Below, in pieces: positions 2,538-19,616 of a DNA stretch of 28,858 nt. The DNA comes from a virus, in IMG/VR virus record IMGVR_UViG_3300021957_000214, positions 1-28,858 of that record. The stretch is one strand, 5' to 3'. The notes under the pieces are model-generated. The model was not told where the DNA came from. It ran no database searches and saw nothing but the letters and a program-made list of their open reading frames with translations. A program made the position numbers and the translations under genes. Every line of letters begins with the position of its first letter. Position 1 is the first letter of the stretch.

Positions 2538-2580
2538 AGTATCGCTGTTTCTAAAGCAAATGTAAACCCTTTTTGGAATA
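2538..2580 (-). promoter_or_regulatory. Early promoter with upstream TATTCCAAAAAGGG box
   Basis: On the complement: -35 TTTACA (2561-2566), a 17-base spacer, and -10 GATACT (2538-2543). The box TATTCCAAAAAGGGTTT (2564-2580) lies against and just upstream of the -35. The same arrangement recurs at 11886, 13811 and 19574. It drives the 2492-to-701 accessory genes. No conserved box would be expected there unless a factor binds it. Confidence 0.75.
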
Positions 2581-2594
2581 ATATTTAAATTAAT

Positions 2595-2939
2595 TTAAAA
2601 AGGTAAATCATCTTCTCGTTCTTCATCTATATAATTAGGGTTTCCTTCATATAATTGTTCAGCATATTCTTGACCCGCTGTTTTTCTAAATCCATATTTT
2701 TCAAAGAACTTAAATTCATCACCATATTTAGTATGTAGTTGTGCATGATGAAATTGACATAAAGGTATGCATTCTGAATCATGGCATTTTAGACCCCAAC
2801 CCCTAAAGCCGCTTTTAGGTTTTAATAAATGATGTGCTTGAACATTTCCATTGCAAGATAAAAACCCTGACCGACTTATAAAGCAAGGCAGGGTTCTAAT
2901 CCACATAAGATGTTTTACATCTTTTATTCTTTTAGACAA
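2595..2939 (-). CDS. HNH-type nuclease (DUF968/Ref-like) with SSB-like acidic C-terminal tip
   Basis: A 114-residue putative nuclease. It shows a His-pair motif VQAHHLL (His36-His37), a Cys-rich stretch KCHDSECIPLC, and CQFHHAQLH with His64, His65 and His69, followed by 'FFEKYG'. This is the layout of compact HNH proteins of the DUF968/P1 Ref kind, which nick or cut DNA at recombination intermediates. The C-terminus, DEEREDDLPF, resembles the acidic tip of bacterial SSB (DDDIPF type) that docks replication and repair partners. It sits three bases after the putative ssDNA-binding protein and closes the recombination operon. Nuclease activity is inferred. Confidence 0.7.
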   Translation of the reverse strand: MSKRIKDVKHLMWIRTLPCFISRSGFLSCNGNVQAHHLLKPKSGFRGWGLKCHDSECIPLCQFHHAQLHTKYGDEFKFFEKYGFRKTAGQEYAEQLYEGNPNYIDEEREDDLPF

Positions 2940-2941
2940 TT

Positions 2942-3364
2942 TTAGAAAGGAGCAGACTCGTCAACATAAACATTCTTTTCTTCATCTTTTGGAAAAGGTT
3001 TGTCATTATAATTACCTTGTTGATTGTAACCGCCTTCTTCTTTGGGTGTTAATCTAACACCTGTCCATTCTGTGCCACTGTCATTACTATTACGCCACCC
3101 ACCGAATTTATATTTAATGTTGTTGAATGTAACAGCACCTCCAATATCAGGACTCGTTTCTTTTCTTTTATCTTCAGGTGCATTTAAGTTTAGCAAACCT
3201 GCACTGAAAACAAGTTCATATTTTTTTGTTCCGTCATTATGAGTATATTCAAGAATAGAAGCATATCGTTCTTCGCCTTCTATTTTAATTTTACCTTTTC
3301 TAATAACTTTGCAATTTGTTTCATGCCACAAACTACCCTGTCCTTCTTTCATTTCATATTCCAT
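2942..3364 (-). CDS. Putative phage ssDNA-binding protein (DUF736-like, OB-fold-like)
   Basis: A 140-residue protein with two similar beta-rich segments. One is around EGQGSLWHETN and 'GKIKIEGEERYASI'. The other is around 'PDIGGAVTFNNIKYKFGGW' and 'EWTGVRLTPKEE', which is the pattern of DUF736-type phage proteins. The tail is low-complexity (GGYNQQGNYNDKPF) and ends YVDESAPF, acidic and with a terminal Pro-Phe like SSB C-terminal tips. SSB-like architecture (beta domain, flexible linker, acidic Pro-Phe tip) and its place between a recombinase pair and an HNH nuclease support an ssDNA-binding role. AAGGAG lies before the ATG. No homology search could be done. Confidence 0.6.
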   Translation of the reverse strand: MEYEMKEGQGSLWHETNCKVIRKGKIKIEGEERYASILEYTHNDGTKKYELVFSAGLLNLNAPEDKRKETSPDIGGAVTFNNIKYKFGGWRNSNDSGTEWTGVRLTPKEEGGYNQQGNYNDKPFPKDEEKNVYVDESAPF

Positions 3365-3635
3365 TCTTTTCTCCTTTTAAAATTAATTTATATTCATAGC
3401 CTTTGCTATTAAACATTCTTTTTTTTATTACCACTTCTCCAGTAGGTTCTAAATTGTATTTCTCTCTTTGAGGTTCTTTTCTTAAATCTCTTATGGCGGC
3501 ACTTATAGAAGGTTCGCCATAAAAAATTCCTATCTTAGCTTTTATTTTTTGCTGTATAGTCCAAAAAGTCCACCACTTACCATCTTTCATACAAAGATAT
3601 ACACAGTCATCTAGTGTAAGCTTATGCTTTTTCAT
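3354..3635 (-). CDS. Winged-helix-like DNA-binding protein
   Basis: A 93-residue basic protein with a helix-turn-helix-like region (TFWTIQQKIKAKIGIFYG, then EPSISAAIRDLRKEP) and a beta wing (EVVIKKRMFNSKGYEYKLIL). This resembles small phage wHTH proteins that sit with replication or recombination genes. It overlaps the annealing-protein gene upstream (14 bases) and the ssDNA-binding candidate downstream (11 bases). The DNA target is unknown. Confidence 0.6.
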   Translation of the reverse strand: MKKHKLTLDDCVYLCMKDGKWWTFWTIQQKIKAKIGIFYGEPSISAAIRDLRKEPQREKYNLEPTGEVVIKKRMFNSKGYEYKLILKGEKNGI

Positions 3636-4263
3636 AAAGCTTTATAAGTTTTTCATATGCTGTAGCTTCAGGACTTTCAAGGTTTGTATTTTCAAAAGCT
3701 TTTTTTATCTCTTTGCTATTTACTCTATACAACTCATGATTATCAGGGTCAGCAGGGTCACTTAACTGTTGTCTACATTTATCTAAAAATGTTTTTTCGT
3801 TCTTGCTGTGGCCTATCTTGTGACCATCTTTATTTAAGAATATATAACCTTTAGATAAGTCAGGTGCAGATGCTTTACTATTTATAGCATTATCTACTTC
3901 AAATGCTGAAGCGTATTCACCTCCACCTAATCCACAGTTAGCTAATGCTCTACCTATAGCAGAGGTTGTACAGTTTTCTAAAGCACTTGTTTTATTCACA
4001 GGACCTTGATTTCTAAATTCTTCTGCAAAATCATTTCCTATGTCTCTCCATGCACCATCTTGATAAATAGAAACAGTTGCTTTTACTACAACTCTTTCTA
4101 AGTCATTAACAATGATTTCAGTTGTTATATTAGCATTTGTTTCAAAAGTGTTTCTAAACGCCTGTAGACGCGTGTCAACAGTAGTATAGTATTTACCTCG
4201 TATATTCACCTTATCTTCATTAGGCAAGTTTGCTATTTTATTTATTACTTCATTTAATTTCAT
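3622..4263 (-). CDS. Single-strand annealing protein, Rad52/Erf/DdrA-like
   Basis: Predicted to anneal complementary single strands during phage recombination. The 213-residue protein has the family core: 'YYTTVDTRLQAFRNTF' (residues 25-40), ITTEIIV, a strand-rich section 'RVVVKATVSIYQDGAW', and the diagnostic NKTSALENCTTSAIGRAL (residues 90-107), followed by GEYASAFEVDNAI. The C-terminal third is a variable charged region. It lies one base after the exonuclease gene, the classic exonuclease-plus-annealing pair (as in lambda Red and similar systems). A GGAG ribosome site precedes the ATG. The exact branch (Sak, Erf or DdrA) cannot be decided by eye. Confidence 0.8.
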   Translation of the reverse strand: MKLNEVINKIANLPNEDKVNIRGKYYTTVDTRLQAFRNTFETNANITTEIIVNDLERVVVKATVSIYQDGAWRDIGNDFAEEFRNQGPVNKTSALENCTTSAIGRALANCGLGGGEYASAFEVDNAINSKASAPDLSKGYIFLNKDGHKIGHSKNEKTFLDKCRQQLSDPADPDNHELYRVNSKEIKKAFENTNLESPEATAYEKLIKLYEKA

Positions 4264-4264
4264 A

Positions 4265-5032
4265 TCATCTCCATATAGTTTTAGCTAATTTAATTTCATC
4301 TTCTCCCCACAACCATGAGTCATAGTTAGGATAAAATAAACTTGCTATTTGGTTTTTATCATTTGAATAAGAAAGCAGGTTCATGATAGCCATCGCCACG
4401 CTTCTTACAGTTTTAATATGCTCGTCAATATTCTCAACTTGCATACTTATCATCTCTGCTTTTTTAGTAGTTACGTATACATAATCAACCATAGCATCAC
4501 AATTTTCAGCTTTGGCGTATATAGACAACTGCCTATTAACAGTATCAGGAATAGCACTAGGCAACCGACTAACAGTCTTTATGTCTCTTACTAATCCTTC
4601 ATATTGCAAATCTATATATCCCAAAATATCAACAGGGATATCATCTATCTGCAATCTTATTTCCTTTTGATAGGAAACTGGTTTACCCATTTCTTGATAA
4701 TACGGTATCGCAGTATCAAGATATCTAGGTATTAAATCTCTTTCTTTAGCTAACTTGAATGTATTCACTTCATGTTCTTTAGCTGTATATTCATATAAAC
4801 CATCAAATCTAGCTATGGCATTTTTTATTATTTTTTTATTGTTTTTTTTAGTGGTTAATGCTTCACCTATACCTTCATCAACAACAGTTCCTCTCCACAT
4901 AGCAGGGTTACTAGCACTTCTATGCTTGTATAAATATCTCATAATAAACATACAAGGGTCTTGTATGTAAGTGTTTATAGATGATGCTGATAGATGCTCT
5001 ATATCGTGTGTTACAAACGGATTATTGCTCAT
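4265..5032 (-). CDS. PD-(D/E)XK exonuclease, Cas4/RecB-like
   Basis: A 255-residue nuclease likely to resect double-strand ends for the adjacent annealing protein. The N-terminus HLSASSINTYIQDPC is the usual RecB/Cas4 entry motif. RGTVVDEG (47-54) occupies the motif-I position, with Asp52 where a His is common. ILGYIDL supplies the catalytic Asp141. VRDIKT gives Asp150 and Lys152 of the (D/E)XK motif. NRQLSIYA (Gln168, Tyr172) is the QxxxY motif. The C-terminus ends in a Trp-rich stretch and lacks the cysteine cluster that makes Cas4 an iron-sulfur protein. It is the first gene of the minus-strand recombination operon, divergent from the regulator at 5115. Confidence 0.85.
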   Translation of the reverse strand: MSNNPFVTHDIEHLSASSINTYIQDPCMFIMRYLYKHRSASNPAMWRGTVVDEGIGEALTTKKNNKKIIKNAIARFDGLYEYTAKEHEVNTFKLAKERDLIPRYLDTAIPYYQEMGKPVSYQKEIRLQIDDIPVDILGYIDLQYEGLVRDIKTVSRLPSAIPDTVNRQLSIYAKAENCDAMVDYVYVTTKKAEMISMQVENIDEHIKTVRSVAMAIMNLLSYSNDKNQIASLFYPNYDSWLWGEDEIKLAKTIWR

Positions 5033-5042
5033 TTTATTTCCT

Positions 5043-5054
5043 CCCCTTCTGGGG
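5043..5054 (-). other. Small hairpin next to the ribosome site of the recombination operon
   Basis: On the complement, CCCC-AGAA-GGGG forms a four-base-pair stem with a tetraloop, and the run continues directly into the Shine-Dalgarno sequence (GGGGAGGAAA before the ATG at 5032). Part of the purine-rich ribosome site is therefore paired if the hairpin forms, which could tune translation of the exonuclease gene. Confidence 0.35.
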
Positions 5055-5075
5055 TGTTCATGTTATTATTTATCA

Positions 5076-5111
5076 AGTATAATTCATATTTGGAATATTT
5101 TAAACTATTAT
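5076..5111. promoter_or_regulatory. Overlapping divergent promoters with a central TTTGGAATA operator
   Basis: Plus strand: -35 TTCATA (5083-5088), 17-base spacer, -10 TATTAT (5106-5111), firing toward the regulator at 5115. Minus strand: -35 TTTAAA (5099-5104), 17-base spacer, -10 TATACT (5076-5081), firing toward the exonuclease gene. The conserved box TTTGGAATA (5089-5097) sits in the spacer of both, where a bound protein would block both. The plus -10 ends only three bases before the ATG, so that transcript would be essentially leaderless, or its true -10 differs. Confidence 0.6.
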
Positions 5112-5114
5112 TTT

Positions 5115-5345
5115 ATGAAATTAAAACAATACTTACTAAACAACAAGCACACTCAAAGTTCTTTTATTGATGAAATAGAAATGGCTAAAGGAATAAAAGT
5201 ACCACAAGGCACATTAGCTAAGTGGATATTAGGAGCGAGAATACCGAGAAAAGAAGAGATGCTTATAATATATGATGTAACAGAAGGAAAAGTTCAACCT
5301 AATGATTTTTATGGTGTAACGCCACCTATATGGAGTAAAGAATAA
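5115..5345 (+). CDS. Cro/CI-type helix-turn-helix regulator
   Basis: A 76-residue DNA-binding protein, the size of lambda Cro-class repressors. The helix-turn-helix spans roughly residues 14-48, with QSSFIDEI as the first helix and VPQGTLAKWILGARIPRKEE as the recognition helix and turn, followed by a Cro-like end (QPNDFYGV). The start is placed at ATG 5115 because the homologous-looking part begins there; the open frame continues upstream through the promoter. No Shine-Dalgarno is visible. It divides two divergent operons and overlaps the ParB-like gene by one base (TAATG), so it is the likely regulator of both. It may act at the TTTGGAATA/TATTCCAAA boxes found elsewhere in the window; this is inference. 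Confidence 0.75.
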   Translation: MKLKQYLLNNKHTQSSFIDEIEMAKGIKVPQGTLAKWILGARIPRKEEMLIIYDVTEGKVQPNDFYGVTPPIWSKE

Positions 5346-5980
5346 TGCAGTATCAAGTTGATTTATTAAATGTCAAAGATTTAAAAGAATATGAAAACAA
5401 CCCTCGTATCAATAAAAAATCTATAGAAAAAGTAGCAGATAGCATCAGGTCTTATGGTTGGAAAGTCCCTATAGTTGTAGATGAAGATATGGTTATTTTA
5501 GCAGGGCATACTAGATTAAGTGCGGCGAAGTTGCTGAATATAAATGAAGTTCCAGTTCATATAGCTAAAGATTTAAGTGAAGAACAAAAAACTGCTTTCA
5601 GAATTATGGATAATAAATCACAAGATTATTCTGAATGGGATAATAAACTTTTAGGACTTGAGTTTGAAAAGTTATCTACTAGTAATTTTGAATTAGATAT
5701 GACTGGATTTAATTTAGAAGAAATTAATAAAATTACAGATGGTGTTTTTTTAGAGTTTGATTCACCCGATTTAGAGATGTCTGAAAATGACTGGCAAGTT
5801 GACGACGTTCATATACCTGAAACTAACGTAAAACAATTTATGTTATTATTCAACATGAACGATATTGAAGAAATAAAAAAAATGGTAGAAGTGCTTCGTG
5901 ATATATATAAAATTGAAAGTCCATCAGATATTATTTTTGAAGCAGTAAAAAATGAATACAAAAAAAATACCAATTTATAA
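5345..5980 (+). CDS. ParB/Srx-like domain protein heading the DNA-modification operon
   Basis: The N-terminal 100 residues form a ParB N-terminal-like domain: NNPR (18-21), KVADSIRSYGWKVPIVVD, and the signature GHTRLSAAKLL (54-64, equivalent to the G-x-R-x-x-A nucleotide-binding motif of ParB), then EEQKTAFRIMDNKS. In phages this domain is often fused to, or encoded with, DNA base-modifying enzymes. The C-terminal half is acidic and unfamiliar, and no methyltransferase domain is attached. It starts at the TAATG overlap with the regulator and overlaps the dioxygenase gene by 29 bases. A DNA-scanning or NTP-dependent guiding role for the modification enzymes is plausible; plasmid-style partition is less likely in this context. 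Confidence 0.75.
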   Translation: MQYQVDLLNVKDLKEYENNPRINKKSIEKVADSIRSYGWKVPIVVDEDMVILAGHTRLSAAKLLNINEVPVHIAKDLSEEQKTAFRIMDNKSQDYSEWDNKLLGLEFEKLSTSNFELDMTGFNLEEINKITDGVFLEFDSPDLEMSENDWQVDDVHIPETNVKQFMLLFNMNDIEEIKKMVEVLRDIYKIESPSDIIFEAVKNEYKKNTNL

Positions 5981-6896
5981 TCTAAAACCTAAATGCACAT
6001 TTGAAGAGTCACAAGCGTTTGCAGGAAAGTACGCAACTGACAAAGATTATTCATTAGTAATAAGAGATGATTGTGACGCTTACAAAGAAAATGGTGAGCC
6101 TTTATTTTTTTATCGTAAAAACCGAATACCTTCTGAAATATGTAAAACAGCCTACAAGAACCTTAGACACGCGGCAACCCCAACAGAGAACAGAGGTATG
6201 GCAGCAGGACCGCTTGATACAGATGAGCATATAAATCATAAACAACAAAGCACACACAGATTTCAAAGAATAAAACCTGATGGAACACTAAGTCGTGTTA
6301 CTAGGTCTAAAAAAGTTAAATCAGGTATAGCGGGTTACTTTGATAGAAACGCTAGATTCCCATATTGTAGACAAACAGCTTTCACTGAAAAGAATAGAAA
6401 AGAATTTTTGGCTTCAATGCCTTACTTACAAGGCATAAGCTCTCTTTTCAAAGAAGCTTGTCCTGAGAGATATAATAATCAATATGAATATGCTAAAAAA
6501 ACTAATAAAGATTTCTTAATTACAAACACAGTTTTCAGCACAATAACTGTAAACAAAAACTTTCAAACTGCTTATCATACTGATGCAGGTGATTTAAAAA
6601 CTGGATTAGGCAATATAGCTGTTCTAAAAGCAGGTAAGTATGAAGGCGGTTATACCGTTATACCTAGATATGATTGTGCTTTTGATTTAGGTAGCGGAGA
6701 TGTATGTTTTTTTGATGTTCATGAATATCATGGCAATACTAAATTAATTGCTAAAACGCCTTTTGAAAGGATATCTGTTGTTTGTTATTACAGAGAAAAT
6801 ATGGCTGATTGCGGTAGTATGCAAGAAGAATTAAAAAAAGCAAAAAATAGAAAAGCAGGAGACAGTCTTGGAAGAAAATCGGCAACTGCTAAATGA
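5952..6896 (+). CDS. TET/JBP-family 2-oxoglutarate/Fe(II) DNA dioxygenase
   Basis: Predicted to hydroxylate the 5-methyl group of a pyrimidine in DNA (thymine to 5-hydroxymethyluracil, or 5-methylcytosine to 5-hydroxymethylcytosine). The 314-residue protein has the full double-stranded beta-helix signature of the family. Iron ligands are His209 and Asp211 in YHTDAGDL and a distal His in DVHEYHGN (His260). The 2-oxoglutarate-binding Arg273 lies in FERISVV. Between them lie 'GLGNIAVLKAGKYEGG' and 'SGDVCFFD', also typical of TET/JBP. The N-terminal 190 residues include basic segments likely to bind DNA. It overlaps its neighbours by 29 bases on each side. No cytosine methyltransferase or hydroxymethyl-dUMP synthase is present here, so thymine is the favoured substrate (inference). 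Confidence 0.88.
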   Translation: MNTKKIPIYNLKPKCTFEESQAFAGKYATDKDYSLVIRDDCDAYKENGEPLFFYRKNRIPSEICKTAYKNLRHAATPTENRGMAAGPLDTDEHINHKQQSTHRFQRIKPDGTLSRVTRSKKVKSGIAGYFDRNARFPYCRQTAFTEKNRKEFLASMPYLQGISSLFKEACPERYNNQYEYAKKTNKDFLITNTVFSTITVNKNFQTAYHTDAGDLKTGLGNIAVLKAGKYEGGYTVIPRYDCAFDLGSGDVCFFDVHEYHGNTKLIAKTPFERISVVCYYRENMADCGSMQEELKKAKNRKAGDSLGRKSATAK

Positions 6897-9006
6897 AGAT
6901 ACGCGAGACAGCGTAATACCTGAAGGAGCTAAAAACTGGGGAGATTATCTTTATACCCATACTCCAGTAGAGCAAAAATCAGATGGTGTTTACTATAAAA
7001 GGGAAGATAAATTTTCTTTATTTGGCATAAATACTTTAAATGGTGCTAAATGTAGACAGTTACTATATTTATTTGAATCAAGGCCTAAAGGCGTAGACAC
7101 TGTGGTTCATGGAACAAACGTGAACGCATCACCACAAACTCCTATGACCGCAGCTATAGCAAAACATTATGGGTTAAGATGTATTCAAGTAGCAGGTGGA
7201 ACTAATTTTGAATCTATTTCACAAAAGAATTTACCTTTGTTTGCCACAATGTTTAATACTGAATATGACTTATCATGTCGTAGCGGTTTCAACGTTGGTG
7301 TTCAAAAAAGAGTACAAACGATTATGAAAGATTTTGATAATTGCTTCACTATAGAAAGAGATATAACTTTAGACCACAAGCTTTCAACTAACACGGTTTC
7401 AGATATTAGGTCTTTTCATGAAGTTGGTGCTTGTCAAGTTCAAAATATACCTGACCACATTGAAGATATAATTATACCTTTCGGCTCAGCAAATTCAGCA
7501 ACTTCTATATTGTTAGGCTTATCTATGCACAAGCCGAGAAACGTCAAACGGATTTATTTGATAAATGTAGGTGTTGATAAAAGAAATTTTATGTTTCAGA
7601 GATTGAAACTTATGGAAGCAGATGTGTCTTCTTTTGAGTTTGTTTGGCACGACACTAAAGAGCCTTACAGCAAACTTTACAAAGGAGTACAACAAGACGA
7701 TATAACATTTCATCCAAGATATGAAGCTAAAACTATTTTATATATAAGGAAAAATTTACCTGAACTTATTAAAGACACTACTTTATTTTGGAATATTGGC
7801 TCTTACCCTGATATTAATACAACAGCTAAAAATGCTAATCTTACTATACCTAAAAAAGTTAAAGAATATTCTATATCTACTGATAAAAAATTAGGTACAT
7901 ACTGCGATATAAATAAAATCACAGAAGTTAAAAACCTTGAATATGGAATGGATTTTAGAGAACCTAAATATCGTAGAGAAGTTTTTTTGAGGTTTTATGA
8001 ATTTCATTTAAAACATAAAAGCCATCCTGGTGGAGTGTATTTTGCTTTTCCTTGGTTAACTAAGAAATATTCATTAGACACAGAACAACAGCTATGGCTA
8101 GCATTTATAAATGGATGCTCACAAAACATAATAACCTCTTGGCACATATTTAATAAATTTCCAGAACCTGTTGGATTAGATTTAGATTTAGTAGACGAAT
8201 GGTGGAATGTAACACAGCATAAATTCAAGGCAGGTTCAGGATGGGATTCTGATAGAAGATATTTTAAAGCAGGAAAAACTGGCCTACCTAATTGTATGCG
8301 TTCTTATATTAATCAAGTTAATAAATTCGGCAACCAAGAAGAAATGTTTAAATCTTTATGTGTACATAATGACCCTAACAGTAATTTTGAAAAGGTATGG
8401 GATTTTGTTAAAAATAATTTTTTATCGTTTGGCAGATTATCAACATTTTCTTATTTAGAATATCTGCGTATACAAGGATTGAATATTGAATGTAATAATT
8501 TATTCCTAGATGATATAAGCGGTTCACGTTCGCATCGTAACGGACTCTGCATAGTTCTTGGAAGAGATGATTTAGACTGGTACAAAACTAAAGTAACCTA
8601 TAATAAAGAAACTACTGACTGGTTGAGTGATGAAGCTGAATTGTTGTTGAAAGAAGCTAAAGAACGATTACCTAACGAAGATGTAAGTTATTTTACATTA
8701 GAGTCAACACTTTGTAATTATAAATCTTGGCATCGTCCGAACCGCAGATACCCTAATGTTTATATGGATATGTTCTATAATAGAATTAAATATGCAGAAA
8801 AAGAATGGGGTGAAGAAGAAGGTAAAATATTTTGGGAAATGAGAAAAGATTGTTTACCTAAAGCATTAAGACTTGAAGACAATAAAAAAGATATAGGCCT
8901 TTGTCCTGAAAAACAAAATCATTATTTGCTTACTGGTCAACCAGTCATGATGGATAGTGAGTGGGATTGCTTCAAAAACGATTATAACCGTTTGATTAAT
9001 TCATGA
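6868..9006 (+). CDS. PLP-dependent enzyme fused to an aGPT-type pyrophosphorylase (base hypermodification)
   Basis: A 712-residue two-domain protein. Residues ~20-340 resemble fold-type II PLP enzymes (ACC deaminase/cysteine desulfhydrase kind): YYKREDKFSLFG, the probable Schiff-base Lys61 in LNGAKCRQLLYLF, HGTNVNASP, and a phosphate-binding loop FGSANSATS. Residues ~355-705 resemble the alpha-glutamyl/putrescinyl-thymine pyrophosphorylase family of helical, glycosylase-like proteins: GVYFAFPWLTKKYSLD, 'LAFINGCSQNIITSW', LDDISGSRSHRNG, LESTLCNYKSWHR, FWEMRKDCLPKALRLE. Members are proposed to displace the phosphate of phosphorylated 5-hydroxymethyluracil with an amine or amino acid. The start is TTG 6868, with AGGAGA five bases upstream; no in-frame ATG fits. 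It overlaps the kinase gene at ATGA. The order of reaction between the domains is inferred. Confidence 0.8.
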   Translation: MEENRQLLNEDTRDSVIPEGAKNWGDYLYTHTPVEQKSDGVYYKREDKFSLFGINTLNGAKCRQLLYLFESRPKGVDTVVHGTNVNASPQTPMTAAIAKHYGLRCIQVAGGTNFESISQKNLPLFATMFNTEYDLSCRSGFNVGVQKRVQTIMKDFDNCFTIERDITLDHKLSTNTVSDIRSFHEVGACQVQNIPDHIEDIIIPFGSANSATSILLGLSMHKPRNVKRIYLINVGVDKRNFMFQRLKLMEADVSSFEFVWHDTKEPYSKLYKGVQQDDITFHPRYEAKTILYIRKNLPELIKDTTLFWNIGSYPDINTTAKNANLTIPKKVKEYSISTDKKLGTYCDINKITEVKNLEYGMDFREPKYRREVFLRFYEFHLKHKSHPGGVYFAFPWLTKKYSLDTEQQLWLAFINGCSQNIITSWHIFNKFPEPVGLDLDLVDEWWNVTQHKFKAGSGWDSDRRYFKAGKTGLPNCMRSYINQVNKFGNQEEMFKSLCVHNDPNSNFEKVWDFVKNNFLSFGRLSTFSYLEYLRIQGLNIECNNLFLDDISGSRSHRNGLCIVLGRDDLDWYKTKVTYNKETTDWLSDEAELLLKEAKERLPNEDVSYFTLESTLCNYKSWHRPNRRYPNVYMDMFYNRIKYAEKEWGEEEGKIFWEMRKDCLPKALRLEDNKKDIGLCPEKQNHYLLTGQPVMMDSEWDCFKNDYNRLINS

Positions 9007-9530
9007 AATGTGTAGCTATAGGCGGAGTACCCGCTACAGGTAAAACCACACTAATGAAAAACATTATCAGTATATTAAAACCAAAAAAAAAGTTTAAATT
9101 TGGTCTACTTAGAGGTTACATGCAAGAAAATATTTCTATATTAGGAGTATATGAACCTAATGATGTTTTTGGGGGTACAGACAAGTTATCTATGGCGGTT
9201 CAAAAAGACTATCAAAAATATATAGATAAAATAATGATTAACACAATATTTGAAGGGGATAGGTTATTTACTAAGAATAATCTTCTTGATATTTGTCAAA
9301 AATATGAAACAAAAATTATCATATTAGAAAATGATAAACAAACTTTGAAAGACCGTCACATAGAAAGAGGTGACAATCAAAGTGAGAAATTCAAGAAAGG
9401 CAGAGCAACAAAGATAAACAACATAGAACTTGAAAAGGAACTGCAACCTTACATAACTAAATATAAATTAAACAGTCACAAAGATAGCAAAGAGTTAGCT
9501 GAATTAATTGTAGAATATCTTATTCACTAA
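9003..9530 (+). CDS. P-loop 5-hydroxymethyl-base DNA kinase (HMUDK-like)
   Basis: A 175-residue P-loop kinase with Walker A GGVPATGKTTL (residues 7-17). Next come LRGYMQEN, the distinctive 'GVYEPNDVFGGTDKLSMAVQ' resembling 5-hydroxymethyl-deoxyuridine DNA kinases of hypermodifying phages, an acidic Walker-B-like strand NTIFEGDRLF, and a lid with ERGDNQSEKFKKGRATK. In that pathway the kinase phosphorylates the hydroxymethyl group in DNA, making the leaving group used by the pyrophosphorylase. The ATG overlaps the TGA of the fusion gene, placing it directly after the enzymes that precede and follow it chemically. Its end overlaps the convergent primase-helicase gene by 11 bases. It could instead be another nucleotide/nucleoside kinase, but the motif and context favour this call. 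Confidence 0.82.
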   Translation: MKCVAIGGVPATGKTTLMKNIISILKPKKKFKFGLLRGYMQENISILGVYEPNDVFGGTDKLSMAVQKDYQKYIDKIMINTIFEGDRLFTKNNLLDICQKYETKIIILENDKQTLKDRHIERGDNQSEKFKKGRATKINNIELEKELQPYITKYKLNSHKDSKELAELIVEYLIH

Positions 9531-11226
9531 ACCTATCTTGATAATCTTCCCAAGAGCTTTCTTCTTCTTGATATTTTACGAAACCATGAGTGTTTAAATT
9601 GTAAGTGAACTTTGCCTCACCTATCTGCCCATATAAACCTTGTTCTCTAATTTTTCTAGTTATAACGCTAGTTGAGTTCTCATCAAAATCTCTGTGTACT
9701 GTTAATACTGCATCTGCTTGGTTATGCCAATGAGCCGCACCACTTATGTCATAAGCAGTTGGAGGGCTATAAGAACCATCATTAGACTTTGGCAACTTAG
9801 TAGGGTGAGCAATAACCCAACATATTATTTCATAAACTCTCGTGAATCTTTTGCAAAGAGAAATAAAGTCTCTTATATGTTCATCTTCTCTTTGGTTTCC
9901 TTGTCTTATAGCTGACACTTCGTTGAAAGGGTCAATAACTAAACCTTTAACCCCATGTTTGTATATTGCACTCTTAGCAATATTTAAAATAAGTTCTATA
10001 GAAGGAATACTGTCTTTAGTTTCTATAAAATAAAAATGTTTATGAATGAAGTCTAGGCCTTGATTCAGTTCTGACTTAGTCATTCTATTTGCAAAACCTT
10101 CATCAAAAGATTTGCCTAAATACATTTGTACTAATCTCCTAATATGCATAGATGTAGAATGCTCAGGTGAAAACAAAGCAAAAGACCAACCGTGATTAAC
10201 AGCAAGTTTCAACAAGCATTGATCAAGGAATGCTGACTTACCATGATTAGGTATTCCAGTTATAACTGTAAAAGTACCAGTCATAGGTTTATATATATCA
10301 TCTAGACCTTCTAAGCCTATCTCAGTTGGCTTTTCATAATTACCTTCATATAAGTCATTGATTTGTTCAAAGTAATCTCTAGCAGTGTGTAAGCCTTCTA
10401 TTGGGTAAGGTTCAGCGTTATCAATTATTTCTTTAAGTTTTAATGCTCCATGTTTCATTAAAACTTCATTAGCATCTTTACAATTATCAGGTGTCCTAAC
10501 AAACCAACATAAATCTTTACCAAATCTATGTAATAATTCTTTATGTAATGCTTTACCACTGGTGTCGTTATCAGTGAAAAGTATTATTTTTTTTGCTAGT
10601 AGCTTACAGTTTTCTAATGCTTTATACCTAGCATCTTTTTCATCTCCTTTAAATTCTTTCGGAGCACCGTTGGGTAATGTAGTTGCGTTATTTAAACCAC
10701 ATTCAGCCAAAGACAAAACATCCATTTCGCCTTCTGTAAAAATTACTGTTTCTGATTTACATACATTGTCATAGTTATAAAGGATAGATTTAGTATTAGC
10801 AGATTGTCTAAATTGTTTATCTGTTGTTCTATATTTAATATTAGTTAGTTTTCCGTTCTCGTCAAAATATTGGAACCCTATCCAGTTATTCTCGTTATAT
10901 ATTTTGTAATCATTTATAGTTGATTCACTTATACCCCTGTCTTTAAAAAACTTAACCATGAAGCTTTCTTGCTTGGGTTCTAATTTAGTTGGTGCAACAT
11001 AAACAGGTTTTTTGTAAGGTCTAAATATACTACCTGTTTTCTTTCCACCTTTGAACCCACAATGATGACAGTTCCATACAACCCCATCATCACTAATAGT
11101 AACTGAGAGAGGATTGTCTCTTGGATTGTGAGGTGGCTGACAACTAGGGCATTTTACTTTTTGATTACCTTCTTGTTGATGATTTAATCTAATTCCGTTT
11201 TCATTTAATGTTTGTTCAATAGTCAT
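9520..11226 (-). CDS. Replicative primase-helicase, T7 gp4-like
   Basis: A 568-residue bifunctional replication protein. The N-terminal zinc ribbon has Cys26-x2-Cys29 (KCPSC) and Cys53-x2-Cys56 (WNCHHCGFKGG). A TOPRIM domain follows, with FTEGEMDVLSL (Glu165) and LFTDNDTSG (Asp219, Asp221). Then comes a RecA-like DnaB-family helicase with Walker A TGIPNHGKS (about 324-331), 'SPEHSTSMHIRRLV', and GLVIDPFNEVS as Walker B. The start is taken as ATG 11226 with AGGA seven bases upstream; a TTG at 11241 would add five residues and overlap the initiator gene. It is co-transcribed with the replication initiator from the 11886 promoter. No separate DNA polymerase gene is present in the window. Confidence 0.93.
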   Translation of the reverse strand: MTIEQTLNENGIRLNHQQEGNQKVKCPSCQPPHNPRDNPLSVTISDDGVVWNCHHCGFKGGKKTGSIFRPYKKPVYVAPTKLEPKQESFMVKFFKDRGISESTINDYKIYNENNWIGFQYFDENGKLTNIKYRTTDKQFRQSANTKSILYNYDNVCKSETVIFTEGEMDVLSLAECGLNNATTLPNGAPKEFKGDEKDARYKALENCKLLAKKIILFTDNDTSGKALHKELLHRFGKDLCWFVRTPDNCKDANEVLMKHGALKLKEIIDNAEPYPIEGLHTARDYFEQINDLYEGNYEKPTEIGLEGLDDIYKPMTGTFTVITGIPNHGKSAFLDQCLLKLAVNHGWSFALFSPEHSTSMHIRRLVQMYLGKSFDEGFANRMTKSELNQGLDFIHKHFYFIETKDSIPSIELILNIAKSAIYKHGVKGLVIDPFNEVSAIRQGNQREDEHIRDFISLCKRFTRVYEIICWVIAHPTKLPKSNDGSYSPPTAYDISGAAHWHNQADAVLTVHRDFDENSTSVITRKIREQGLYGQIGEAKFTYNLNTHGFVKYQEEESSWEDYQDRFSE

Positions 11227-11230
11227 TTTA

Positions 11231-11857
11231 TTATCCTGCAAGGTTGTTTAAGGTTTTATCCTTAATAGGTTTATTTATATAGTCTAAATATCTTTTTTGA
11301 TTTAGCCATGTGGTTGGGTGTGGTATAAATTTTTCTTCTGTAGATTCGTTTTCTTTCGCGAAAACTTTAGTAGCATAGTTTATTTTTTTATATTCTTTTT
11401 CATCAAACTTCATGAAACTCTTTTTAGCTTGAAACTTTCCAACTCTACGAGGATACACTTTCCAAAACTCATCAAAATATTTTTCATTAGAACTCTTAGT
11501 ATTAGTTTTTGTATCATCTTTAGTATTGGAGGGTTCTGACACCCCCACCCTGAGTGTTTCAGCACCCCTAGGGGTTTCTACACCCATACCTAATTTTATG
11601 TGATATCTGTTACTTGTATATCCACCATTAGCTGTTTTTCTGTGTTCTATTTGTAGGTAACCCAGTTCTTCAAACTCTTTAATTGTTTTCTGTATTCCTT
11701 TAGTGTCTTTGAGACCTATTATCTTGGCGATGTGATTGTATGATGGGTAACATGAACCTTTTTCATCCGCATAGTTCCCTAGTATTACTAATATAAGTTT
11801 TTTTGTTGGTGTAAGTCCTTCTGTTTTCAACGCAAGGTTAAGATATTCAATTGACAT
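11231..11857 (-). CDS. Replication initiator / helicase-loader-like protein (phage O-type)
   Basis: A 208-residue protein with an N-terminal winged helix like lambda O and similar phage initiators: 'LTPTKKLILVILGNYAD', 'SCYPSYNHIAKIIGLKD', 'IQKTIKEFEELGYLQIEHR' and 'SNRYHIKL'. After a flexible Ser/Thr/Asp linker, the C-terminal part (YFDEFWKVYPRRVGKFQAKK, then FIPHPTTWLNQKRY) is typical of phage replication proteins of the DnaT/helicase-loading type. In lambda-like phages the origin often lies inside such a gene; the low-complexity linker region (about 11440-11560) is where to look. AGGAG ribosome site. First gene of the replication operon. Confidence 0.82.
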   Translation of the reverse strand: MSIEYLNLALKTEGLTPTKKLILVILGNYADEKGSCYPSYNHIAKIIGLKDTKGIQKTIKEFEELGYLQIEHRKTANGGYTSNRYHIKLGMGVETPRGAETLRVGVSEPSNTKDDTKTNTKSSNEKYFDEFWKVYPRRVGKFQAKKSFMKFDEKEYKKINYATKVFAKENESTEEKFIPHPTTWLNQKRYLDYINKPIKDKTLNNLAG

Positions 11858-11885
11858 TTGTCACTCCTGTTTCAATTTACAATTC

Positions 11886-11928
11886 ATGATAGTTTATTTC
11901 TTACAATTAATAAACCCTTTTTGGAATA
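11886..11928 (-). promoter_or_regulatory. Replication operon promoter with TATTCCAAAAAGGG box
   Basis: On the complement: -35 TTTATT (11909-11914), 17-base spacer, -10 TATCAT (11886-11891, five of six consensus). The shared box (11912-11928) adjoins the -35. The -35 is weaker than in the sister promoters while the -10 is better. It lies between the end of the 11935 gene and the initiator gene, so replication has its own promoter within the minus-strand block. Confidence 0.75.
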
Positions 11929-11934
11929 GTAATG

Positions 11935-12126: not shown

Positions 12127-12135
12127 TTATTTCTC

Positions 12136-12576
12136 CTATAACTCTATCCAGTCTTTAACTTCAAGACTGATTTTATAATCTTTTACACTATCTTTATAAA
12201 AGTCCCTTGCTTCGTCTATTTTCAAGGGTTCTTTTAATTTACCTTGTATATCGTTAGCAACTTCATACATAACAGCAAAAGGCAACTTATATGCTAACCT
12301 AAACAATATGTCTCGGGCATACTGTTCTATAAATGTGTAACCAGTCCCGCCAATAAAAATGCAAAGGCTATCTAACTCTATTTGATAATCTTTTGATGAA
12401 TAATAATTTAAGTTATTTCTTTCACATATAGACCAGTGTATAAAGTCTTGACCTTTTATAGGGTTTCTTGATATGAGTTTCTCTTTGATCAATAATTTTT
12501 TTATTTCTTCGTATCTAAATTCTGCACTATTAAATTCAATAGCATATACATTCTTTTTTTTCATTTCGTAATACAT
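12136..12576 (-). CDS. Unknown protein (146 aa)
   Basis: A 146-residue soluble protein starting MYYEMKKKNVYAIEFNSAEF, with a mix of helices and strands and a Gly-rich turn FIGGTGYTF. TAAGG lies eight bases before the ATG, inside the end of the upstream gene, indicating coupling. A second Met at residue 5 is possible. No membrane segment or known motif is evident. Function unknown; early operon member. Confidence 0.6.
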   Translation of the reverse strand: MYYEMKKKNVYAIEFNSAEFRYEEIKKLLIKEKLISRNPIKGQDFIHWSICERNNLNYYSSKDYQIELDSLCIFIGGTGYTFIEQYARDILFRLAYKLPFAVMYEVANDIQGKLKEPLKIDEARDFYKDSVKDYKISLEVKDWIEL

Positions 12577-12579
12577 AGT

Positions 12580-13185: not shown

Positions 13186-13529
13186 TATTTTCTCCTTCTG
13201 TAAGTTCCATTAGAGAATGGGTTGAAGTTTTTATCATTACCATCAGCATCTTTTATATAAACATTTGATTGACCTACTATCTCAGGTTTTTCAAGTTTGT
13301 ATATCTTGCCATTTTTTAGTTCCCACACCATAGACGGTGTTTGCTCATGTATTGAAATAAGGCCGCCATAGAATCTATATTCTTTAGTTAGGCAAATCCA
13401 ATGTGATTTAGTACCTTCACCAAAACAACCATAATCAGGATAACAGTGTCTAAAGTCAATCATAGGCTGATTATTATCAGTGATTCTTTGCATTATTTCG
13501 TTAAGTTCTTTGTTTTCTTCATATTCCAT
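13185..13529 (-). CDS. Unknown protein (114 aa)
   Basis: A 114-residue protein starting MEYEENKELNEIMQRITDN. It has a Cys/His-containing section 'FRHCYPDYGCFGEGTKSHW', beta-like stretches (ICLTKEYRFYGGLISI) and a basic end (NGTYRRRK). The scattered Cys and His do not form a clear zinc motif. Second gene after the 13811 promoter. No family recognised. Confidence 0.6.
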   Translation of the reverse strand: MEYEENKELNEIMQRITDNNQPMIDFRHCYPDYGCFGEGTKSHWICLTKEYRFYGGLISIHEQTPSMVWELKNGKIYKLEKPEIVGQSNVYIKDADGNDKNFNPFSNGTYRRRK

Positions 13530-13557
13530 TATAATTTACTCCTAGTAAGGTCTGCTG

Positions 13558-13764
13558 TTAAATTACAGCAAACCCTTTGTTACAAATTGCAATAACAGCA
13601 TGTTCAACTTTGAAGTATTGAAATACTGCAGTGACTCTATCAGTTTCAGGTATACCAACAATGATTGGTGCAAACTGAGTAAGGTTATATTTATCTAATG
13701 CTTTTTCAAGATTAGATACTGAAGCGTATGTTCTAGTGTTTTGTAGAAAGTTAGAGTTTATCAT
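13558..13764 (-). CDS. Unknown small early protein (68 aa)
   Basis: A 68-residue protein, first gene of its operon, translated from the 31-base repeated leader (ribosome site AAGGTGA). It starts MINSNFLQNTRTYASVSNLE and ends with a hydrophobic strand (HAVIAICNKGFAVI). The pattern 'NLEKALDKYNL...' followed by short strands suggests a small alpha/beta domain. Many phages carry similar small proteins of unknown role as their first early gene. Function not assigned. Confidence 0.6.
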   Translation of the reverse strand: MINSNFLQNTRTYASVSNLEKALDKYNLTQFAPIIVGIPETDRVTAVFQYFKVEHAVIAICNKGFAVI

Positions 13765-13773
13765 TTTATTTCA

Positions 13774-13804
13774 CCTTGCTAATTAAAGCGTTTTATCAAT
13801 TTAT
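13774..13804. repeat. 31-bp direct repeat, copy 2 (mRNA leader)
   Basis: Perfect copy of 2501-2531, in the same orientation and in the same context between a box-type promoter and a gene start. Together with the promoters these form two near-identical promoter-leader cassettes 11.3 kb apart. Confidence 0.85.
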
Positions 13805-13810
13805 ATACAT

Positions 13811-13853
13811 AGTATGCGGGATAAATTACAAAATGTAAACCCCTTTTGGAATA
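13811..13853 (-). promoter_or_regulatory. Early promoter with TATTCCAAAAGGGG box
   Basis: On the complement: -35 TTTACA (13834-13839), 17-base spacer, -10 CATACT (13811-13816). The box (13837-13853) has one mismatch from those at 2564 and 19600. It drives the 13764-to-11935 genes and lies back to back with the plus-strand terminase promoter. Confidence 0.75.
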
Positions 13854-13892
13854 ATAAGTATGTTTTTTTAGTATTTCGCATCAAATAAAGCG

Positions 13893-13916
13893 TTTTTGGA
13901 ATATTAATGTGATAAT
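13893..13916 (+). promoter_or_regulatory. Terminase promoter: extended -10 with TTTTTGGAATA box
   Basis: The sequence TGTGATAAT (13908-13916) is an extended -10 element (TGn plus a five-of-six -10). The shared box, here TTTTTGGAATA (13893-13903), lies just upstream in plus orientation, where a -35 would be; no good -35 is seen. The -10 ends 12 bases before the TerS start, leaving a very short leader of about six bases. Confidence 0.6.
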
Positions 13917-13928
13917 ATTTGAGAAATA

Positions 13929-14492
13929 ATGGTCACTAAAACAAAGCAAACAAAACTTACTGATACTAAGAAGTTGAAAATACGCAACGATTTCGTTCAT
14001 GGTATTGATGGTGATGAAAAGAAATTATTTCCTACACTTGATGAACTTTGTAAAAAATACAAGGTAGCAAAAAGCACTGTATACAGAGTAGCAAGAAGTG
14101 AGAGTTGGAAATTACAGAAAGAACAACTTCAATCTGAATATATAAAAGAACTAGATAAAAAAAGAAGTAAATACATGGCTGATAAATCCATGAAGACTGA
14201 TGATAGGACTTTGCAACTCGCAGACGCTGTATTCGTAACTATTGCTCAATCGTTACAGCAAAACAATACTGATACGCAAAATAATAAAAAAGGACTAGCA
14301 CCAAACCAAATCACAGCAATAGCACAAGCAATAGCAATTACACAAAGAGTCTCAAAACTAGCTTTAGGAGAAGCGACACACAATATAGATGCAACAATCA
14401 ACGAAAACACAAACGAAGCGTTCAGAGAAGCTATGGAACTCCTTGACGAAGTTGAAGACAGCAGAGCAAAAAGCATTCAAGCTACGCACTAA
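13929..14492 (+). CDS. terS: Terminase small subunit
   Basis: A 187-residue protein at the head of the packaging module. The N-terminal third has a helix-turn-helix resembling those of small terminases: 'FPTLDELCKKYKVAKSTVYRV' (about residues 33-53), then ARSESWKLQKEQ. The middle and C-terminal parts are helical and Gln/Asn/Ala-rich, fitting the oligomerisation region. Small terminases recognise the packaging site, which often lies in or just before this gene (13765-14000 is the place to look). It overlaps the large subunit gene. The call depends on position plus the HTH; sequence conservation of TerS is low in general. Confidence 0.78.
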   Translation: MVTKTKQTKLTDTKKLKIRNDFVHGIDGDEKKLFPTLDELCKKYKVAKSTVYRVARSESWKLQKEQLQSEYIKELDKKRSKYMADKSMKTDDRTLQLADAVFVTIAQSLQQNNTDTQNNKKGLAPNQITAIAQAIAITQRVSKLALGEATHNIDATINENTNEAFREAMELLDEVEDSRAKSIQATH

Positions 14493-15702
14493 CTGGTTAA
14501 GCACCGCAAGAGATAAACAGATACAACCGAAGTTCATAGAACATTATATTTGGTTAATACTTGCAGGTCGTGGTTGGGGAAAAACTAGGACTGGTGCACA
14601 GGACATAGCACTTTATGCTTTGAGAAACCCTGATACTAACTGTGCGGTAGTTGCTCCGACACATGGAGATTTAAGGCGTGTATGTTTCGGTGGTGAAAGT
14701 GGATTGTTAAGCGTTATACCTAAAGAATGTTTATTAGAATCAAAAGATCAAAAAGGTTACTCATCAAGTGTATCTGAAATAAGATTATTTAATGGTTCTA
14801 AAATTACAGGTTATGCGGCACAAGAACCTGATAGATTAAGAGGACCACAATTTCATAGAGCTTGGTGTGATGAAATAGCGGCTTGGAGATATCCTGAAGC
14901 ATTTGATCAATTAATGTTCGGTCTAAGGCTAGGTGATAAACCTCAATGCGTAATAACTACTACACCTAAACCCACTGCACTAATAAAAGATTTAGTACAA
15001 AGAGAAGATGTCCATGTTACATCTGGAAGCACATTTGAGAACGAAGCAAACCTCGCTGAAAGTGCTTTGGCTATGTTGAAAGATAAATATGAAGGAACAA
15101 CTTTAGGTAGACAAGAGTTATATGCAGAAATAATAGAAAACCTTGAAGGTGCATTATGGACTAACGATTTAATTGAAGAAGCAAGGATATCAGATGATGT
15201 TGATAAAGAACTTACACAAATAATAGTAGCTGTAGACCCTGCGGTGACTGCTAATGCAAATTCAGATGAAACTGGTATAGTAGTTGTAGGTAAAGATTAT
15301 AATAACGAATTCTATGTATTAGAGGATTTAAGCGGTAGGCATAAAGCAGATAAATGGGGTAGAATAGCAATTAATGCTTTTTATGAATGGGATGCAGATA
15401 GGATAGTGGCAGAGACCAATAATGGCGGTGACTTAGTTGAAAGGTTAATAAGAAATATTGACCCCAATGTTGCTTACAGGTCTGTTAGAGCTACAAGAGG
15501 TAAGATTTTAAGAGCAGAACCCATATCAGCGTTGTATGAACAAAGAAGGGTACATCACATGGGTGTGTTACCTGAGTTAGAATCACAGATGTGCAGTTAT
15601 ACAGGAGATACAAATAGTTCACCCGATAGATTGGATGCTTTAGTTTGGGGATTAACTGAATTAAGCAAGTCTAGGGGACAAGTAAACTGGAGAATAACCT
15701 AA
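14389..15702 (+). CDS. terL: Terminase large subunit
   Basis: The packaging ATPase and DNA-cutting nuclease. Walker A is LAGRGWGKTRTG (Gly60-Thr66 in the longest form), Walker B is RAWCDEIAAW (Asp161, Glu162), and a coupling motif follows near VITTTPKPT. The C-terminal RNase H-like nuclease has the first acidic strand 'IIVAVDPAV' with DETGIVVVG, then 'RIVAETNNGGDLV'. Starting at ATG 14389 gives 437 residues but a 104-base overlap with TerS and no ribosome site. TTG codons at 14443 or 14452 are alternatives with GGAA-like sequences upstream and would still keep the conserved 'NWLSTARDKQIQP' part. The portal start overlaps the stop (TAATG). Confidence 0.93.
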   Translation: MQQSTKTQTKRSEKLWNSLTKLKTAEQKAFKLRTNWLSTARDKQIQPKFIEHYIWLILAGRGWGKTRTGAQDIALYALRNPDTNCAVVAPTHGDLRRVCFGGESGLLSVIPKECLLESKDQKGYSSSVSEIRLFNGSKITGYAAQEPDRLRGPQFHRAWCDEIAAWRYPEAFDQLMFGLRLGDKPQCVITTTPKPTALIKDLVQREDVHVTSGSTFENEANLAESALAMLKDKYEGTTLGRQELYAEIIENLEGALWTNDLIEEARISDDVDKELTQIIVAVDPAVTANANSDETGIVVVGKDYNNEFYVLEDLSGRHKADKWGRIAINAFYEWDADRIVAETNNGGDLVERLIRNIDPNVAYRSVRATRGKILRAEPISALYEQRRVHHMGVLPELESQMCSYTGDTNSSPDRLDALVWGLTELSKSRGQVNWRIT

Positions 15703-17618: not shown

Positions 17619-18433
17619 TGCAAACTAACCTGAAACAGTTTAATACTTTCAGGCAAGGTAGAGTAGATGCCCTAAGAGAATCTCGTAAGCAATCAGTATT
17701 AAGAAATAACCTAGAAAAGAGATTTTATAGAACACTATCAACACTGTTCAGAAAGTTCATCAATACACAATTATTCACTTATAAAGAGTTTGGGTACTTT
17801 ACTCCTGAAGTAGCTGAACAAAGATTGAATGAAGAATTTATTCCCTTAATAATGTCTCATTACAGAAGGGTCTTCAAAGCTATATATAAAAATAATGAAG
17901 ATAACTACATGCTTAACAGAAAAGCAGATGAAGCTTTCGTGTTTGGTAGAAGCTTTGACTTTGAAGCATTAGTTGCACAATACTTTGCTACAAGGCAGTT
18001 AATACTAGTTGGTATAAGTTCTAGAATGGCTAATCAAATATCAAACAAAATAGAAGAAGGTAGATTAGCAGGTAAGACTTTAGAAGGCATAGCTAACTTG
18101 GTTAGCCAAGAGATGACAATAATAACTAGAAGCAGAGCGGCACTAATAGCAAGAACAGAAACACACAACGCGGCATCTTTTGCAAACCATTCGTATCATT
18201 TGACTGTACAAAAAGACACAGGTATTAAAATGCTTAAGAAGTGGGTAGCAACTAATGATGAAAGAACTAGGTCTGCACATGCAGAAGCTAATGGACAAAT
18301 TGTTGATATGAATGAAGACTTTACAGTTGGCGGTGTGCCTATGGGATATGCAGGTGATTCTAAAGGCGGTGCATCTAATGTTATAAACTGTAGGTGTGTA
18401 ATCGTATATGCTGATGAACGTGATATGGAATAA
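17618..18433 (+). CDS. Mu F-like minor head protein
   Basis: A 271-residue head morphogenesis protein of the phage Mu gpF/SPP1 gp7 kind. The N-terminal two thirds are helical and basic, with 'RAALIARTETHNAASFANHS' leading into the conserved C-terminal block. There 'KKWVATNDERTRSAHAEANG' and the end SNVINCRCVIVYADE carry the family's R-x-x-H and N-C-R-C motifs. The start is GTG overlapping the portal's TAG (TAGTG), a coupled arrangement. It is expected inside the head near the portal. The three reverse-strand genes follow immediately. Confidence 0.88.
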   Translation: MQTNLKQFNTFRQGRVDALRESRKQSVLRNNLEKRFYRTLSTLFRKFINTQLFTYKEFGYFTPEVAEQRLNEEFIPLIMSHYRRVFKAIYKNNEDNYMLNRKADEAFVFGRSFDFEALVAQYFATRQLILVGISSRMANQISNKIEEGRLAGKTLEGIANLVSQEMTIITRSRAALIARTETHNAASFANHSYHLTVQKDTGIKMLKKWVATNDERTRSAHAEANGQIVDMNEDFTVGGVPMGYAGDSKGGASNVINCRCVIVYADERDME

Positions 18434-18531
18434 ATGTTAGTCTTTAATATGGAACTAACAAACCATACCTACTCTACCTAGCAGGTCGTAAGCCTAGTGA
18501 TACATCGTGGGTAGCTTTCTCCACAACAACT
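18434..18531. other. Convergent intergenic region with nested inverted repeats
   Basis: Non-coding gap between the ends of two convergent genes. TGTTAGT (18435-18441) pairs perfectly with ACTAACA (18454-18460). Further on, CCTAG (18493-18497) can pair with CTAGG (18532-18536) around an inner GTGG/CCAC stem (18507-18510 with 18521-18524). No T-tract follows either stem, so these are not textbook terminators. It may be a bidirectional terminator, processing site or small structured RNA; none is certain. Confidence 0.35.
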
Positions 18532-18849
18532 CTAGGATTTATTCTTGCTTACCCTCCCATAGTTATTTGATTCAAGTGTCTGAATGTAGGCTATAGTTTT
18601 AGCAACATCATCTGATGTTTGATAGCTTTGAACATCATCTCCTTTATATTTTAAAAACTTTCCATTAGGTTTAAAGATTGCTGTTTCACAATTAGCACAT
18701 TTGTTTTCAACATTCTGATTACTTCTTGCTAAATGTTTATTAGAGCAATAATTTACAACACCGAACTGTACTGAAATCTCATAACCATTTTCAAAAGTCA
18801 TTGAAAACCCTTGATATAATCCTTTATCGTGTTTTCTAATTCCTAACAT
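18532..18849 (-). CDS. Conserved-type phage accessory protein, unknown function
   Basis: A 105-residue protein on the strand opposite to the head genes. The pattern 'GFSMTFENGYEISVQFGVVNYC', a CANCETAIF segment (two Cys), 'FLKYKGDDVQSYQTSDDVA' and a final helix AKTIAYIQTLES resembles a small protein seen often in phage accessory regions. No activity is known. It is the last of three co-directional genes (19529 to 18532) and shares a junction with the 18849-19103 gene (one-base overlap). Confidence 0.65.
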   Translation of the reverse strand: MLGIRKHDKGLYQGFSMTFENGYEISVQFGVVNYCSNKHLARSNQNVENKCANCETAIFKPNGKFLKYKGDDVQSYQTSDDVAKTIAYIQTLESNNYGRVSKNKS

Positions 18850-19103
18850 TATTTAACTCTCTCTTTGTATTGAATCATATTACCTAATAAACCACCCATC
18901 GGCTTTATGATGTCAAAATCCTCTGTAAGTTTACAGTCTTCAATATTAACTTCCCATGTTTCCCAAGTATTGCCAACTTCATTAATTAATACATCAATGA
19001 TCACATATCTGTATTTACAATGTATTACTTTTGCAGGATATGTTTTGTTGTTATTAGTCCAGTCTTTATAATAGACCTTTTGTCCTCTTTCTAATTTAGC
19101 CAT
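18849..19103 (-). CDS. Unknown small beta-rich protein (84 aa)
   Basis: An 84-residue protein beginning MAKLERGQKVYYKDWTNNN, followed by short strands ('AKVIHCKYRYVIIDVLI', 'WETWEVNIEDCKL'). This is the layout of KOW/Tudor-like or SH3-like small barrels, but no family is recognised. It is three bases downstream of the 19107-19529 gene. Confidence 0.6.
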   Translation of the reverse strand: MAKLERGQKVYYKDWTNNNKTYPAKVIHCKYRYVIIDVLINEVGNTWETWEVNIEDCKLTEDFDIIKPMGGLLGNMIQYKERVK

Positions 19104-19106
19104 AAT

Positions 19107-19529
19107 TTATCTCTGCTCAGAAGGTTTTGTAAATGTAGCCATAAGGCTACCATCTTTAGAATAAATTTTATGATTACCGTTATACATGAATCCGTTAATA
19201 TCAAAATTATCTATTTGTTCTGTGTTGCCACGATTCTCATAAAACTTGTTACCTCTAGGACCATTGCCCATAGGAACTAAAAAAAATACAGACTCATTTT
19301 CTGTACCCTCGTCAATTATCATTACATCACCTGATGAAGTTGACCTAAACCCATCTTTACCTTCAGGTAATTGACATTCAAGTTTTACATCTAAGTTATC
19401 AACCCAAGACTCATCAATGTTATTAGACAATCTAAAGGCGTGTTGTAAAGAAACAGTTTTAACACTGGCAACTTTCTTATAAGGCTTTTCGTTGTTCATG
19501 AATTCTGTAGCGTGGTATATTGTTATCAT
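19107..19529 (-). CDS. Phage accessory protein, unknown function (140 aa)
   Basis: Start chosen at 19529 (MITIYHATEFMNNEKPYKK) because the upstream bases match the leader and ribosome site (GGAAAATAAA) of the other box-type promoters. An in-frame ATG at 19562 would translate that leader. The protein has an 'HAFRLSNNIDESWVDN' segment, then FRSTSSGDVMIIDEG; the RSTSxGD motif recurs in small phage and plasmid proteins of unknown role. First gene of the reverse-strand insert in the head module. Confidence 0.65.
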   Translation of the reverse strand: MITIYHATEFMNNEKPYKKVASVKTVSLQHAFRLSNNIDESWVDNLDVKLECQLPEGKDGFRSTSSGDVMIIDEGTENESVFFLVPMGNGPRGNKFYENRGNTEQIDNFDINGFMYNGNHKIYSKDGSLMATFTKPSEQR

Positions 19530-19573
19530 TTTATTTTCCTGCCATTTAAGGCTGTTTATCAAATTATGAAATA

Positions 19574-19616
19574 AGTATCGTTCATTATTATTGAAATGTA
19601 AACCCTTTTTGGAATA
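19574..19616 (-). promoter_or_regulatory. Early-type promoter inside the structural module
   Basis: On the complement: -35 TTTACA (19597-19602), 17-base spacer, -10 GATACT (19574-19579). The box (19600-19616) is identical over 17 bases to the one at 2564-2580. Downstream bases also match the 2538 promoter for about 15 positions beyond the -10. It drives the three reverse-strand genes 19529 to 18532. Confidence 0.75.

Follow-up and report, generated by a model that had tools for sequence, protein, structure and literature searches.

The six boxes found in this phage genome are very probably operators of the phage's own Cro-like protein, the 76-residue product of gene 5115, which is predicted to read all of them and would bind presumably as a dimer. 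The window, i.e. the whole stretch of DNA analysed, is an entire IMG/VR record of 28,858 bases with a GC content of 34%. A megablast search of the window against cultured phages gave no match. The annotated genes comprise an endolysin, a leftward early block, primase/helicase, terminase, portal, protease, capsid and a tape-measure-like gene, and intergenic DNA amounts to 1,159 bases (4% of the window). The genes to which the boxes relate are:

4265-5032, minus strand: exonuclease-like gene, which opens the leftward early block and would be governed by the spacer-type box.
5115-5345, plus strand: gene for the Cro-like helix-turn-helix protein of 76 residues, the proposed regulator (gene 5115).
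11231-11857, minus strand: replication-initiation gene, with primase/helicase at 9520-11241, downstream of the 11920 box promoter.
13929-14492, plus strand: gene that opens the late rightward block and immediately precedes the large terminase gene (14389-15702).
19562-18532, leftward: small-gene block that sits within the late block.

Behind gene 5115, a rightward block (5345-5980, 5952-6896, 6868-9006 and 9003-9530, plus strand) resembles a DNA base-modification module. It holds a TET/JBP-type oxygenase (Pfam Tet_JBP, E 1.7e-26), a ParB-like protein and a small kinase-like ATPase, as well as a 712-residue protein that matches two uncharacterised phage families.

The box is an imperfect dyad of the form TATTCC-N5-GG. 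Its 18-mer occurs as three exact copies on the minus strand, with one mismatch at a fourth site and two at a fifth, and the backwards control gave no match. The boxes and their promoters are:

2563-2580, minus strand: exact 18-mer TATTCCAAAAAGGGTTTA, dyad centre 2572, at -41 of the leftward promoter for gene 2208-2492 (-35 TTTACA 2566-2561, -10 GATACT 2543-2538).
5081-5097, minus strand: TATTCCAAATATGAATT, centre 5089, occupying the spacer of the leftward early promoter (-35 TTTAAA 5104-5099, 17-base spacer, -10 TATACT 5081-5076).
11911-11928, minus strand: exact 18-mer TATTCCAAAAAGGGTTTA, centre 11920, at -41 of the promoter for replication initiation and primase/helicase (-35 TTTATT 11914-11909, -10 TATCAT 11891-11886).
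13836-13853, minus strand: TATTCCAAAAGGGGTTTA, one mismatch, centre 13845, at -41 of the leftward promoter for a small-gene block starting at 13764 (-35 TTTACA 13839-13834, -10 CATACT 13816-13811).
13886-13903, minus strand: TATTCCAAAAACGCTTTA, two mismatches, centre 13895, 16 bp from the -10 (GATAAT 13911-13916, plus strand) of the rightward terminase promoter, where no clear -35 is seen.
19599-19616, minus strand: exact 18-mer TATTCCAAAAAGGGTTTA, centre 19608, at -41 of the leftward promoter for block 19562-18532 (-35 TTTACA 19602-19597, -10 GATACT 19579-19574).

All six sites described in the initial annotation were recovered, and the 17-base spacers it gave for four promoters (2538, 11886, 13811, 19574) are correct. 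These four positions, however, are the ends of the -10 hexamers, and the TTTA with which the box was said to end forms the first bases of the -35, where promoter and dyad overlap in the weaker half of the latter. The box at 5089, 26 bp upstream of the 5115 start codon, had been placed in the spacer of two divergent promoters. This holds for the leftward promoter but not for the rightward one at 5083-5111, which is not credible for gene 5115 as its start would fall after the ATG. A terminator-like stem at 2219-2198 closes gene 2208-2492 in the leftward direction; given this stem, the promoter at 2580 may drive a single gene.

A motif matrix trained on sites of other phages only, none from the window, found exactly six strong sites in the window, with scores from 13.5 to 30. 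All six are intergenic, and between them they cover nearly all control regions of the phage; the next-best site, which is coding, scores 3.3. Six sites of the window score at least 13.4. Its 300 dinucleotide shuffles averaged 0.12 such sites and never had more than 2, and the reversed window had none. A motif that recurs at several promoters, above chance and away from coding sequence, is what a regulon of dispersed operators looks like, and scanning the window and its relatives, the check originally proposed, bore out the sites and their conservation. The short form of the box is no signal on its own: the 9-mer TATTCCAAA had 21 matches with up to one mismatch versus 18.1 expected. Seven copies are exact, and a single one of them, at 7787-7795 (minus strand), lies inside coding sequence, in the 712-residue gene. 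This copy lacks the GG half and has a full-motif score of 0.1. The earlier statement that no box lies in coding sequence is hence true of the full motif but not of the short form. Among the matches listed in a literature search with the 9-mer, only unrelated papers were found.

Relatives were gathered as terminase relatives from viral contigs and by an exact 18-mer scan of all IMG/VR. The 18-mer was found in 60 IMG/VR stretches, most of which share the same layout: AT-rich DNA, box, TTTAC(A/T), 16-17 bases, -10, ribosome site and ATG. Three matches without this layout look like chance. More distant relatives carry a fuller dyad, TATTCCAWWWTGG, with GGGTTA, GGTTTAA or GGAATA as the right half, and there it sits between a TTGCA-type -35 and a TATAAT-type -10. 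When 106 non-redundant sites were compared, the distance from the dyad centre to the first base of the best -10 was mostly 8, 17 or 28-30 bp, with 21 sites near -20, nine near -29 and 60 at -40/-41. These positions are spaced roughly one helical turn apart, which is an observation and not a demonstrated rule. In the window, box 5089 belongs to the -20 type, box 13895 (offset 16) to the -29 type and the other four to the -41 type.

Conservation is also seen at single promoters. Orthologues with as little as about 45-50% protein identity still have the -41 box of the replication-initiation promoter, and the box of gene 2208 has an equivalent place in L089, L117 and L008. In L173, two tandem boxes 20 bp apart lie upstream of gene 1099, at a divergent promoter of the 5115 type; they would be a natural case for cooperative binding.

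Which protein reads the box? The 5115 protein has a weak match to the transcriptional repressor family phrog_35 (E 4e-4), and Pfam HTH_3 reaches 17.7 bits, below the cut-off of 23 (E 0.0038); HTH_3 is weakly matched by 31 of 54 family members. A structure model built from the alignment of these 54 sequences has five helices with a helix-turn-helix (pLDDT 93), and the predicted fold is that of a phage-repressor helix-turn-helix. Its nearest solved fold is the N-terminal domain of TP901-1 CI (Z 8.2, 2.8 A over 68 residues), followed by YdaS (Z 7.9) and P22 c2 (Z 6.8), although Z values of about 8 may reflect only the common helix-turn-helix arrangement, and other repressor families may fit as well.

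The family is present in 23 of the 30 records tested, including all those above 23 kb; the seven records without it measure 7 to 23 kb and are possibly just fragments. A tblastn search of 50,697 phage records gave one weak match, and a search of the cellular genome collection with the protein found no relative. The orthologues are syntenic, lying opposite the exonuclease-like gene of the leftward early block. Of 74 distinct orthologous loci, 58 have a dyad scoring above the 95% null level no more than 170 bp upstream of the gene, in most cases with a leftward -10 (TATAAT or TATACT) lying 7-8 bp away. No other finding ties the box to the 5115 protein as strongly as this regular adjacency. Since all carriers may belong to one phage lineage, common descent could inflate the co-occurrence of box and gene; the adjacency of box and gene would be less easily explained in that way. 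Covariation of recognition helix and operator half-site was suggestive but not clean, the operator variants not following the helix consistently, and it was dropped as evidence. Taken with the predicted fold, the operators upstream of the orthologues and at their other promoters uphold the phage-wide regulon with the 5115 protein as its regulator, as first suggested.

A role in immunity is unlikely for this regulator, because the integrase that would mark the lysogeny module of a CI-type repressor was not found: no PF00589 integrase was detected in 26 records of up to 54 kb, whereas the control genomes all matched, in a search confined to this integrase family and to records that are perhaps incomplete.

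From the positions of the boxes a model with two signs of regulation can be proposed, in which the 5115 protein represses from the spacer and activates from -41; we give the full model an even chance of being correct. Beside its own gene, the 5115 protein would find its operator filling the spacer of the strong promoter that drives the leftward early block, and a rising level of the protein would switch early transcription off. Repression where the box fills the spacer is likely from its position, and this part of the initial annotation was well motivated. At the promoters for replication initiation, gene 2208 and the two small-gene blocks, the operators at -40/-41 would abut the -35. This is the position of class II activators, e.g. 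lambda CI at PRM; the sites are centred near -41.5 and adjoin the -35, as such an activator requires. If the regulator is correctly identified, activation from -41 is plausible and slightly favoured over repression. It is not placed higher because the sites overlap the -35, because some relatives pair a -41 box with a perfect TTGACA -35, and because the box of the 2208 orthologue promoter is mobile: L019, L059 and L193 have it in the spacer, some other phages at -41. The position upstream of the -35 was rightly recognised, but the reading of it as activation meets these three objections.

Core-promoter strength was considered as a test of activation and rejected. The -35 scores showed no difference between position classes. 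The -10 scores do differ between the classes, but the class thresholds bias this comparison. When the -41 promoters were chosen by the box alone, their -10 hexamers scored below those of the 5115-divergent promoters (p = 0.004), a small difference that speaks for the two-sign model.

A serious, though not the favoured, possibility is that the 5115 protein represses every boxed promoter, be it at -41, -29 or -20, and thus brings about early shut-off. Small Cro-type proteins are usually repressors, and this reading fits that role. The same three features that weigh on activation, namely the overlap with the -35, the perfect TTGACA in relatives and the orthologous promoter with its box at either place, speak for it, as does the frequency of spacer-type promoters in more distant relatives. 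However, about 60 non-redundant promoters hold the box within 1 bp of -40/-41, which is tighter than a simple blocker needs. Moreover, the terminase promoter would be off exactly when the late genes are needed.

The terminase region is also where two operators come close together. The boxes at 13845 and 13895 form a divergent pair exactly 50 bp apart, and the divergent terminase region has a spacing of 50 or 51 bp in most relatives holding both boxes. In the non-redundant set, 13 of 24 close pairs show this spacing. The DNA between the paired boxes is only 45% identical. Since the phasing is conserved without conservation of the sequence, joint binding at the pair is suggested. In the two-sign model, the box would replace a usable -35 at the terminase promoter, and the protein bound there would act together with that bound to its partner 50 bp (about five helical turns) away. 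Regarding the transcripts themselves, the stretch 13911-13929 (plus strand) leaves room for no more than about 5-7 untranslated bases in the terminase message. In L209, L213 and L079, the -10 lies about six bases before the ATG of the replication-initiation gene. This suggests that these messages may be leaderless or near-leaderless.

It is improbable that another protein reads the box, either a host transcription factor or a phage protein such as the HTH_36 replication-initiation protein (11231-11857). The latter does have a DNA-binding domain and a box at its own promoter. Yet the boxes sit at promoters and show no iteron-like clustering, so that replication iterons were rejected, and the most regularly conserved box adjoins the 5115 orthologue. 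A host factor with this site, the alternative initially allowed for, found no support: 257 Gb of cellular genomes contain just two copies of the 19-mer, one apparently coding and the other without the promoter layout. That the box is a promoter element for RNA polymerase or an unusual sigma factor, with no separate regulator, would fit the fixed distance to the -35 and -10 in the -41 class but is very improbable, as ordinary sigma-70-type promoters carry the same dyad at -29 or in their spacer, and the dyad is symmetric in many relatives.

Several known systems resemble the proposed one in part. In lambda, operators near -42 and -19 (OR2 and OR3) act with opposite sign when bound by CI or Cro. 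The likeness lies in the small helix-turn-helix protein and the divergent early promoter next to the regulator gene; here, in contrast, there are six dispersed sites, only one such regulator gene is seen and no integrase was found in relatives. MrpR of SPbeta binds SPBRE, a short element at many intergenic promoters that was first seen in silico (PMC10516654). Our phage shares the conserved short element at many intergenic promoters and, as predicted, a single phage protein for it. However, MrpR is tyrosine-recombinase-like and silences the prophage (PMC10516654), whereas the regulator proposed here is Cro-like and belongs to phages without a detected integrase. The repressor of mycobacteriophage L5 binds as a monomer to operators and stoperators, which are asymmetric 13-mers, and also blocks elongation (PMC9283540). 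Many dispersed sites oriented with transcription and one phage protein are predicted here as well, but our sites are dyads and occur only at promoters. TP901-1 CI offers the closest solved fold to the 5115 model and likewise a divergent promoter pair. Unlike the 76-residue 5115 protein, to which its sequence identity is about 15%, it is 180 residues long, contains domains for dimer and multimer formation and acts together with MOR (PMC7250872; PDB 3zhm, 5a7l).

Thus the principle of dispersed operators for one phage protein is known from MrpR and L5; the present system differs from these in its protein family, its operator, the fixed positions and the setting in phages without a detected integrase. 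The broadest interpretation is tentative and rather unlikely to hold in full: the 5115 protein would be a Cro-like master switch of lytic timing in phages without a detected integrase, its sign set by operator position (-20, -29, -41), and the phased 50-bp pair would couple early shut-off to the onset of terminase expression. To our knowledge, almost nothing is known of gene timing in uncultivated phages. In this phage, the sequence points to a candidate regulator together with an operator code and target genes, all of which can be traced across many relatives. By this, position-dependent sign and roles of Cro-like proteins outside lysogeny could be tested with short DNA and one protein of 76 residues.
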